NCBI GenBank assembly: GCA_951812585.1
Contig: OX638318.1
Location: 3,104,810-3,168,809, forward strand
Direction of reading: 5' to 3'
Length of the DNA: 64,000 nucleotides
Source: Rhodothermales bacterium
GTDB taxonomy: Bacteria > Bacteroidota > Rhodothermia > Rhodothermales > Bin80
Shown: piece after piece, positions 12,570 to 28,642 of the stretch
How positions within the stretch are numbered: the stretch's first letter is position 1
Layout of the letters: each line of letters opens with the position of its first letter
Notes under the pieces: model-generated
The model's database searches: none
What the model saw: only the letters and a program-made list of their open reading frames with translations
Told to the model about the DNA's origin: nothing
Program-made: the position numbers and the translations under genes

Positions 12570-13595
12570 ATGCCTGACAGGCCCAAGATCGACGACATTG
12601 CGAAGGCCGCGTTTGTTTCCCGTTCCGTGGTTTCTCGCGTGCTCAACAACAGGCCCAACGTCAGTCCGCTGGCGCGAGCGAGAGTCAAGGAGGTCATCGA
12701 GCGCCTGGGATATGCGCCGAGTTCCGCAGCTCGGAGCCTTGCTACCAACAAGACGTACGAGATCTCGATCCTTGCCCCAAGGCAAAAGGATCATGTTTTC
12801 GCGAACGCATTCTGGTCCCTGATCTTCCTGGGGCTTTCTGAGGGATGCATTCGCCGCGGCTATTTCGCCACGTTAAACGTCATTGCCAATGAGCTGGATG
12901 AAAAGCTCAAGCACCGGATCCTTCGAGGGCACAGCATGGATGGCTATGTCTTAATCGGACGGGAAGTTGCCGACGAAGCGTTTGATGTCTTGCAAAACAC
13001 GGGCAAGCCGATGATTGTCCTCGGGCATGATGTCCACCATAAGCAGCTGCCTTCTGTAGATGTAGATAACGTGGGCGGGGCATACAAGGCGGTGCAGTAC
13101 CTCTTCAAGTTGGGACACCAGCGCATTGGCCTGGTCGCAGGGCGCGTCCAGACACAGGAGGCACAAGACCGCGTCGAGGGGTACGCCAAGGCGCATTATG
13201 AGCTGGGTGTAGCGCTGGATGAAGCGCTGAGCTTCCCAGGGGAATTTTCGCACCGGAGTGGATACAGGTCCATGCAGCGGCTGCTTCTGCATAGGCCCAC
13301 CGCGGTGTTTTGCACCTCCGATGCCCAGGCTATGGGAGCACTATTGGCCATTCATGAAGCGGGATTGCGTGTGCCCAGGGACATCTCGGTAATCGGTTAT
13401 GATGGCCTGCCCTCCGCGCGCTTTACGTATCCGCCGCTAACCACTATGCAGCAGCCGATCTATAGCATGGGTCGGCAGACTTCGGACACGCTCATTGACC
13501 TGATCGAAGACAAGCATAGCGGGCCGCAACGCATCATGCTGCGGTCCACGCTCATTGAACGGGAATCGTGCGGGCCCCCACCACTGGCGGCCTGA
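12570..13595 (+). CDS. LacI/GalR-family transcriptional regulator
   Basis: A 341-residue regulator of usual LacI length. Residues 5-25 are the N-terminal helix-turn-helix (KIDDIAKAAFVSRSVVSRVL), followed by the hinge helix (SSAARSLATNKT) and a periplasmic-binding-protein-like sensor domain. That domain shows the expected LAPRQKDHVFAN, VILGHDVHHK-type and GHQRIGLVAGR segments, a VFCTSDAQAMGAL strand and ISVIGYDGLP near residue 275. It most likely responds to a sugar or sugar derivative. It is divergent from the sugar-oxidation run and is followed by an MFS sugar porter, so these are the likely targets, although a target is not shown by the sequence alone. Confidence 0.93.
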   Translation: MPDRPKIDDIAKAAFVSRSVVSRVLNNRPNVSPLARARVKEVIERLGYAPSSAARSLATNKTYEISILAPRQKDHVFANAFWSLIFLGLSEGCIRRGYFATLNVIANELDEKLKHRILRGHSMDGYVLIGREVADEAFDVLQNTGKPMIVLGHDVHHKQLPSVDVDNVGGAYKAVQYLFKLGHQRIGLVAGRVQTQEAQDRVEGYAKAHYELGVALDEALSFPGEFSHRSGYRSMQRLLLHRPTAVFCTSDAQAMGALLAIHEAGLRVPRDISVIGYDGLPSARFTYPPLTTMQQPIYSMGRQTSDTLIDLIEDKHSGPQRIMLRSTLIERESCGPPPLAA

Positions 13596-13878: not shown

Positions 13879-14274
13879 CTACCAGGCCCGCACCATGTGC
13901 CTTGTGGCACTGCCGTGAGGCATGGTGAGCCGGTACAGGTATGCCGACTGGCTCACGCATGGGCATCAACGCTGGCCTGGTGCGGACCGGCAGCGCGGAT
14001 GTCCTCTTTCCAGCACGGCTACGCGGCGCCACAGCAGGTCGTATACCGAAAGCTCAACTGGGCCTGTGTGAGCCAGGCTGCACCGCACCGTCGTCGCCGG
14101 ATTGAACGGGTTGGGGTAGTCCTGATCCACGACAAATGCAACAGGCACCGCCGCATCCACCGCAGTCACGGGGGTGCCAATGGTGTAGTCGAACGATACC
14201 GGCGCTCCACTGGCGCCGCCTGCCAGGATCAATCCGGCTGCATGCTTCGCGGCAATGCGATCGGACACGGCCAC
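13879..14274 (-). pseudogene. Decayed short T9SS cargo gene
   Basis: Reading leftward, one frame shows IAAKHAAGLILAGGASGA, VSFDYTIGTPV and the T9SS sorting start DQDYPNPFNPATTV. It breaks at a TGA at 13966-13968. Further along in the same frame AYLYRLTMPHGSATRHM completes the expected sorting-domain end. Between these, a different frame carries VDAHA, a stop where Trp is expected, then AS, so two compensating indels and a nonsense change are present. No signal peptide or ATG survives upstream. The intact paralogue is at 27358-27816. This is a clear relic, not a working gene. Confidence 0.75.
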
Positions 14275-14538
14275 GCTACGAGGCTGTATACACCCAAAAT
14301 GGCGTGTTATCGCATCGGGGCTGCAAGTACTTTTGCGATCATTGCAGTTGCACGATCACCGATATCTTTGCCTTGGGCGCGGCAGCTGTAATGAGCGGTG
14401 CTGGAGACCATTTTTCAAAAGCAGTTCTTGTCCTGGAACGAGGAATAGCAGCAACCTTGGCACGCCCTGCAAACGCTTGAAGGCAGTCGACAGGCTCCGC
14501 GCAAAGCCTATCTTTGAGGACAGCTATCCACTTTCTAT

Positions 14539-26917: not shown

Positions 26918-27357
26918 GATTACGGATGGAATGAGGATTGGCTTGAACGATGTTGCCATAGCTGTGGACCGGCGCAGTGGTTCAGCGGGTCCTGCGTTCC
27001 ACAATGGTCCAGCGTGGTCTGAGGCCTGGTCGTCGCTGTTTCACCTGTCTTCGCCATGTCCTGTGCTATGCTGGATAGCCGACATAGGCGCTTACCTTGC
27101 GGTCATCGTAACCGGTCAGAGCCATATCTTCGGATACGCGCATATGGGCATCTCGGCGCGGTATGTGGTGCGACACAATGACTTCGCCCCGCCACCAGGC
27201 GTCATCGCGCCGGCCAACGCGCGCCGCATCAGCGGAGCACTACTGACAGCGGAGACATGTCACGCCAACTAGGCGTACCGGCCAGGGCCTAGTGCGCAGT
27301 TTTACTGTTGTTGAACATCGACTGTCTCAGCTGATTGCGGATGACGGGCCTCCTGTG
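26918..27357. other. Intergenic region upstream of purC
   Basis: 440 bases between the purC start and the end of the short T9SS gene. A plus-strand frame runs through most of it, but it lacks any family pattern and overlaps the purC start in antisense, so I treat it as a shadow. The purC promoter should lie at the left end. Confidence 0.4.
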
Positions 27358-27816
27358 CTACCGCGCCACCACCATGCGCCGTGTGGCCGCACCGTGGGGC
27401 GTGGAGAGTCTGAGTAAGTATACTGCGCTGGCCCATGCCTGCGCCTGCACGCGAATCTTGTGCAGGCCCGGTGCTCGTTCACCCTCAGTCAACACGGCAA
27501 CGCGGCGACCCAGAAGGTAGTAGACCTCTATCTTGACCGGGGCGGCTTGGGTCAGGCTGTACTGCACGGTCGTTGCCTGGTTGAATGGATTTGGGTAATT
27601 CTGATCCAGTGTGAAGGCCGGTGGGAGCGGTGCAGGGGCGGTGGCTACAGGCACACCGATGGTGTAATCCAGTGATACGTCCGCGCCTACGGTGCCGGCG
27701 GCCAGTACCAGTCCGGCCACCTGTTTTGCGGCAATCGTGTCGGGGAGGGCCGTCGCGGGGCGCGTAGCCAGGAGGTCCAGCGCAGTGGCTAGTAGTAGAG
27801 CGTAGGATATTCCCAT
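27358..27816 (-). CDS. Short secreted protein with T9SS sorting domain
   Basis: A 152-residue protein. ATG 27816 gives the signal peptide MGISYALLLATALDLLA; the longer frame to 27909 is unlikely. After the signal there are only ~45 residues (DTIAAKQVAGLVLAAGTVGA, VSLDYTIGVPV) before the T9SS type A sorting domain, which opens with DQNYPNPFNQATTVQYSLTQ and ends RLSTPHGAATRRMVVAR. The cargo part is therefore almost absent. A decayed relative with the same layout lies at 13879-14274. It may be a minimal exported peptide or a truncated end of a larger ancestral gene. The function is unknown. Confidence 0.7.
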   Translation of the reverse strand: MGISYALLLATALDLLATRPATALPDTIAAKQVAGLVLAAGTVGADVSLDYTIGVPVATAPAPLPPAFTLDQNYPNPFNQATTVQYSLTQAAPVKIEVYYLLGRRVAVLTEGERAPGLHKIRVQAQAWASAVYLLRLSTPHGAATRRMVVAR

Positions 27817-28125
27817 CGGATCGCAGGTTATCAGCGACTGTTTTAGACTAGCCGCGCCCAGGGCGCACTTCGTCGCCATTTTGGCGCCGTTTTGACACCT
27901 ATTCGTCATATCGGTTCCGATTCACAAAACGTGCGTTAATTGCTGTTATACCACACGTTTCCGTTCATCAGAGTGGTTCGTGCACCGCTTCAGGTATTCA
28001 AATGTGTGCGGCTGCCAGTCGGGAGGGTCCGATGTGCTGCCGGTCGTCACGGCCTTGATTTCGCCTCGGCGTCGTCCTTGCGGTGCCAAGCGGAGCGCAG
28101 TCGGATCAATTCGCGGCAGAGAACG

Positions 28126-28480
28126 ATGCAGATGCGGCGCAACCGTTCGGTAAAGGACATCTTGACAGGGCGACGAAGACTCGGCGAGGATTCGGAATGT
28201 TGTTTCTGTTTCCGAGAACTCAACCCTGGATAGCATGGGTAAGCCCATTGGGGGACGAGAGGTATCCGCTGCGCACGGCATTTTGTATTCGCAACTGGCC
28301 TATTGGCGGCCTTGTCAGGAGACTGCGTCAAATGGCGAGGGGGCCTTCTTAGAGGTGGAGGCGCCTGTGGCAGTCGAGCGGGCGCTGGTGGAGGTGCGTT
28401 ACCCTGACGGGATGCAGGTGCGCTTTTTCGCGCCGGTATCTGCATCGCACAGGGCGCAGCAAGTCTGTTATCAGGGGTGA
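28126..28480 (+). pseudogene. Frameshifted IS66 TnpA-like (transposon accessory) relic
   Basis: The first frame starts MQMRRNRSVKDI, as the N-terminus of IS66-type helix-turn-helix accessory proteins does. About 80 bases later a second frame carries the helix-turn-helix end AAHGILYSQLAYWR, followed by EGAFLEVEAP and VEVRYPDGMQVRFFAPVS, the beta-hairpin tail of the same family. At least one frameshift separates them, and no IS66 TnpB or TnpC partner follows. I see no terminal inverted repeats. Confidence 0.5.
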
Positions 28481-28642
28481 AACCGTCTTGTCGCGCTCCG
28501 GTCAGATCTGCGTAGCCTTGGGTGAATGTGCTGTGGGATCTGCGTGGACGCCTGTGCACACGCAGCCCAGCGATGCGCCGGATTTCTGCTGTACGGGGTG
28601 TTGCACTATCTTCCCGATTACAACGGATTGTGCAGAGATCCT

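Follow-up and report, generated by a model that had tools for sequence, protein, structure and literature searches.

The stretch of DNA analysed here, referred to as the window (64,000 nucleotides), carries on its minus strand an intact open reading frame of 152 codons at positions 27358–27816 with a stop codon at 27358–27360, which is supported by its codon usage and which we call copy A. It had initially been annotated as a T9SS protein consisting of little more than its sorting domain, and its length and coordinates proved to be correct. The deduced protein starts with a hydrophobic stretch representing a putative signal peptide (residues 1–23; 27748–27816, minus strand), which was assigned from its sequence and has a possible small-x-small cleavage site in front of LPD. 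It continues with an LPDTIAAK...DYTIGVPV stretch and a linker and ends with a type A T9SS sorting domain, which was delimited by domain profiles and AlphaFold2 to about residues 74–152 (27361–27597, minus strand). The IAAK...DYTIG segment was set to residues 24–57 (27646–27747, minus strand), based on its presence in two further copies, B and C, and on the AlphaFold2 model. The sorting domain claimed in the initial annotation is real because it scores above both curated cut-offs, matching Por_Secre_tail (PF18962) with an E-value of 4.7e-7 (30.5 bits vs. a cut-off of 27) and TIGR04183 with 4.7e-9 (36.1 bits vs. a cut-off of 23), and it contains the motifs NYPNPF and, at the C-terminus, R-R-M-V-V-A-R.

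In an AlphaFold2 model built with 22 aligned rows, residues 1–57 were predicted to be disordered (pLDDT of about 30–45), and residues 65–152 were predicted to form a seven-stranded Ig-like sandwich, mostly with pLDDT values >90. Searching with this model by Foldseek gave no match at E < 0.001 and returned only general Ig folds, among which the sorting domain of mirolase (8qb1) appeared at rank 18 with an E-value of 0.0067. The genome consists of one contig (C1) of 3.2 Mb and also codes for the T9SS translocon SprA, as recognised by an SprA_N match above the cut-off (C1:2272758–2274404, E 1.7e-79).

The same genome contains five copies of the family, of which copies B to E are all broken, leaving A as the only intact one. 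Copy B lies in the window (13885–14277, minus strand) and comprises the segment and the tail, interrupted by an internal stop and a frame change; it is 53% identical to copy A over 135 columns. Copy C (C1:324147–324311, with the segment profile matching at C1:324159–324260) also bears the segment and has a tail with a stop, gaps and frame changes. Two copies without the segment were detected by DNA searches, namely copy D, a tail at C1:238663–239058, and copy E, a piece of the 3' end of the tail at C1:2099429–2099522. Because a profile of the 36-residue segment found exactly three strong places in this genome (E 1e-21 to 1e-23), the likeness of the segments of A and B is beyond chance. It had been claimed that the pattern is kept in the decayed copy and represents a family rather than an accident, and both claims hold, with three segment-bearing and two tail-only copies.

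According to the initial annotation, an occurrence of the pattern only at the ends of long proteins would mark these loci as truncated remnants, and we found no such protein in 58 relatives or 394 other genomes of the phylum. None of the relatives contained the segment, and 46 of the 58 matched only the linker and NYPNPF part. The phylum search gave weak partial matches in seven genomes (E 0.006–0.047), which were all treated as chance; the two inspected were a serine dehydratase (L242) and a long surface protein lacking the pattern at its end, as far as listed (L243). Only weak matches were obtained from the 15 other genomes of the family at E-values up to 1. The own genome likewise yielded no long protein carrying the segment. 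Its T9SS proteins with LRR and He_PIG domains matched with E-values of 1e-4 to 0.003, and we rejected them as the long parent because the alignments extended through the linker and the final part of a He_PIG repeat without including any IAAK part. Six such LRR and He_PIG proteins (L004–L009) are nearly identical and spread over the genome, which additionally contains three T9SS open frames that are almost identical to each other, code for about 1840 residues each and lie 7–8 kb apart (L011–L013; C1:123036, 131229 and 138444).

A search of a genome-contig collection gave at least 80 loci, and the IAAK part was absent from all of the matches listed, which were confined to the linker and NYPNPF. 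Short sorting-tail frames from three genomes (G011, G012, G014) were rejected as further minimal genes and are regarded as cut genes or unresolved repeats because 11 of the 13 frames examined extend to a contig end or almost so. A distant homologue was identified in genome G005 (C3:2655542), which consists of the second half of the segment and the tail (47% over 96 residues); its 5' end is cut off, and it is fused in frame to an AbiJ_NTD4/PDC-S32 gene. Through this fusion (L109:1480–2712), a fragment of a sorting tail is once more located in front of a gene resembling a defence gene.

The N-terminus of copy A combines a hydrophobic stretch with a small-x-small site, which makes a Sec signal peptide plausible from its sequence, but it is a weak candidate because no K or R is found ahead of the hydrophobic stretch and a D lies within it. 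Its codon usage does not resemble that of genes (−0.02 bits per codon vs. 0.37 for the segment), and 206 of the 3028 open starts in the window (6.8%) performed as well in a crude signal-peptide test. In copies B and C, nothing recognisable as a signal peptide is present ahead of the segment, and the corresponding stretch is gone from copy D. A working signal peptide is the weakest step in proposing export of copy A. A search for promoter-like sites around copy A, using the sigma-70 consensus only, yielded none, with 0.5 expected by chance.

The site of copy A was compared with those in the 15 other genomes of the family, all of which have malK adjoining purC. A lacI-type gene is located between them in 14 of these genomes, and the exception shows only a weak trace. 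By comparison with this malK-purC gap of the relatives, we recognised a decayed 3' remnant of a lacI-family gene next to copy A (26941–27155, minus strand); the gene conserved in 14 of the 15 relatives is destroyed here over 26941–28640. Upstream of copy A lies a repeat (27944–28139, minus strand) matching a type I restriction locus (hsdR-like) at C1:872435–874023, with 1.39 kb missing. The larger stretch of 27944–28419 is a mosaic of repeats with matches to C1:872435, 873961, 1829167, 1930409 and 179310. Because the lacI gene is lost and copy A and fragments matching other loci are found in its place, copy A must have arrived in a damaged site in this lineage. The dead copy B is also located beside a lacI-family gene (12570–13595), which is possibly a coincidence.

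Copies A and D share more than the sorting tail. They are 84% identical in the tail and 87% identical in an upstream stretch of 106 bp, located at 27843–27948 (minus strand) in copy A, and exactly 237 bp between these two parts are missing in D (27606–27842 of A, minus strand), comprising the end of the upstream stretch, the signal peptide, the segment and the linker. In D, this upstream stretch begins with a palindrome of 28–30 bp (L138:8656–8685), which is degenerate in A and which could be an operator. Downstream of the tail, copy D is followed by an intact gene for an AAA_16 ATPase of 390 residues (C1:239055–240224, equivalent to L138:9056–10225), and behind copies C and E, what remains of this ATPase gene starts at an equal distance. 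In G005, a genome of another genus, two tandem ATPase homologues (C3:617624 and 619146) are likewise preceded by decayed tails. The tail gene and the ATPase gene are therefore physically linked in C, D, E and G005. Copy A has no ATPase remnant beside it within the window, but its homology continues past the stop codon (27315–27357, minus strand) through the leader between tail and ATPase known from C, D, E and G005 and ends at the GATGT of the ATPase start. Because copy A has retained the open reading frame without an ATPase, whereas D has lost the 237 bp and retained the ATPase, we conclude that copy A derives from a two-gene unit and that A and D are duplicates of one such unit with opposite losses.

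Apart from copies C and E, the analysis covered 47 different stretches upstream of ATPase genes (30 and 20 loci, three in common). Protein comparison detected tails in three of them (D and the two G005 copies), and DNA comparison added one weak case at a third G005 ATPase (C3:2365799; 74% over 38 bp, E 0.003), while the remaining 43 contained no tail. The linked ATPase matches PF13191 (AAA_16) and PF13401 (AAA_22) above the cut-offs and shows only weak matches, below cut-off, to STAND and defence models. Among 114 genomes of the order, its family is present in 16, which make up the whole of the own GTDB family, and in none of the 98 others, representing what appears to be a large lineage-specific expansion. 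Some genomes contain up to 83 first-look candidates, of which the best 16 were scored. We found no published account of the tail family or its linkage to an ATPase in the open-access literature searched. The linkage might reflect a joint function of the two genes as a module, for example of an exported peptide and a cytosolic sensor or immunity ATPase, but we consider this quite improbable. There is equally little probability that such a module would be used in competition or defence, with A and D as a split pair retaining one half each.

The codon usage of copy A amounts to 0.183 bits per codon, compared with a 5th percentile of 0.141 for pieces of real genes and a 95th percentile of 0.084 for out-of-frame sequences. 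Because the dead copy B also falls into the range of real genes, this value speaks of ancestry. The dN/dS ratios (with bootstrap intervals) were 0.32 (0.18–0.63) for A and D, 0.24 (0.12–0.41) for A and B, and 0.33 (0.16–0.60) for A and C. Copies A and D are sisters with ultrafast bootstrap values of 96–98, and we assigned the changes to their branches by polarisation with the other copies, with the test for A covering the tail domain. Since the split from D, the A branch has accumulated 15 synonymous and 10 non-synonymous changes, compared with 7.7 synonymous changes expected under neutrality (P 0.0008), whereas the 4 synonymous and 5 non-synonymous changes on the D branch fit neutrality (P 0.33). 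With other choices of outgroup, the P values for the A branch were 0.010 (B and C agreeing), <0.001 (C alone), 0.003 (B alone) and 0.016 (B, C and K), and the D branch was neutral under all four. The segment alone is also constrained between copies A and B, with 27 synonymous and 29 non-synonymous changes vs. 16.8 synonymous changes expected. In the upstream 106 bp, 14 of 106 sites differ, compared with 20.5 of 67.4 synonymous sites (P 0.01 by Fisher's test with 20 of 67). With lengths of 0.165 vs. 0.042, the A branch exceeds the D branch about fourfold, which would not be expected of a gene under constraint when compared with a dead copy. Taken together, copy A looks as if it has been under purifying selection and does not appear to be plain debris, although the selection on its branch could also be compatible with a recent functional decay.

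Given the demonstrated sorting domain, copies, linkage, 237 bp deletion and selection on copy A, we estimate a probability of about 0.5 that copy A represents the sole unbroken member of a small family of minimal T9SS substrates restricted to this lineage and that it derives from a tail-ATPase unit. The ancestral unit would have consisted of a short sorting-tail gene, a leader of about 45 bp and an AAA_16 ATPase gene and would have undergone several duplications. The 237 bp deletion would then have gutted the tail gene of copy D, with survival of the ATPase, and in copy A, the tail gene would have survived with loss of the ATPase. The product of copy A would comprise a probable Sec signal peptide, a flexible segment of about 34 residues, a short linker and the type A sorting domain. 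According to parts of a review (PMC10202324) and a structure paper (PMC11285876), proteins that combine a signal peptide with a tail of type A are exported and their tail is removed. The product of copy A may accordingly pass through Sec and T9SS and lose its sorting domain to a PorU-type sortase, so that about 45–50 flexible residues would be released or attached to the surface. Our guess is that they constitute a small surface-displayed or secreted peptide. It counts against a live copy A that four of the five family copies in the genome are dead, that its signal peptide is poor and finds no backing in the other copies, that it is located among gene fragments in the place of a lacI gene that is intact in relatives, and that the promoter search around it was negative.

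The initial annotation had also considered a truncated relic of a bigger protein. This describes copies B, C, D and E, which are truncated or broken remnants. If copy A were the 3' relic of a gene for a larger T9SS protein, its frame and hydrophobic start would be accidental and the selection signal would stem from the time when it belonged to the larger gene. Such an origin is consistent with the homology of A, B and C starting at the same codon to within about 25 bp, with a signal peptide that is not common to the copies, with the decayed site of A and the breakage of the four other copies, and with the 5' truncation also seen in the G005 homologue at C3:2655542 (47% over 96 residues). However, neither the own genome nor the 394 others of the phylum provide a long protein with the segment as its source, and the selection signal falls on the branch after the split of A and D. 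Because these two copies share the upstream 106 bp and differ by one clean deletion of 237 bp, it is simplest to assume that their common ancestor already had the short form. The open frame of A, its non-neutral substitutions (P 0.0008) and the lack of a longer segment-bearing homologue in the genomes searched speak against a pseudogene of a longer T9SS protein. We regard an origin as a relic as the main rival, which is less probable than a minimal substrate but still quite possible.

The tail may also have been kept for reasons at the DNA level, if its 3' end and the leader served as the upstream region of the ATPase gene and travelled with its duplications. In copies C, D and E and in the G005 pair, the stop codon, the leader and the start of the ATPase gene are still aligned although the tails are cut or broken, which would agree with this, as would the slow evolution of copy D. 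Still, this would explain neither copies A and B, for which the window contains no ATPase, nor the codon-level constraint on A, and 17 further ATPase upstream stretches carry no tail by protein comparison, which makes this explanation unlikely. Finally, copy A might act as a surface-signal protein regulating the secretion system by analogy to PorA of Porphyromonas gingivalis, a sorting-domain protein for which a regulatory effect is described in parts of PMC7712824. The same source assigns PorA a folded FimH-like domain, whereas copy A offers just a short segment predicted to be disordered; moreover, no regulator or T9SS gene is linked to A, and the gene that is linked to its family codes for an ATPase of another kind. 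We therefore consider a regulatory role very improbable. Of the two functions suggested in the initial annotation, a cell-surface decoration and a regulator of the secretion machinery, neither gained support from the analysis.

If copy A is exported as a minimal T9SS substrate, it would represent a near-minimal natural example and a ready test of the least passenger needed by the system. In that case, the opposite losses in A and D and the selection seen on the half that survived would also suggest that a T9SS peptide is connected, in a way so far overlooked, with a family of ATPases that has expanded strongly in this one bacterial family. Should copy A be only a dying remnant, it would show how the ends of sorting-tail genes pile up as fragments in such genomes.

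Compared to known type A T9SS substrates (PF18962/TIGR04183), copy A is alike in its sorting domain, in the predicted seven-stranded Ig-like sandwich and in the presence of SprA in the genome, but these substrates carry folded cargo, whereas the passenger of copy A comprises only about 34–50 residues. PorA (PGN_0123) of P. gingivalis resembles copy A as a non-enzyme protein with a sorting domain, as far as described in parts of PMC7712824, and differs in its folded N-terminal domain and in acting on PorXY-SigP. The linked gene shares its matches to both PF13191 and PF13401 with the AAA_16 and AAA_22 ATPases, but among the genomes of the order, its own family was found in a single GTDB family only.
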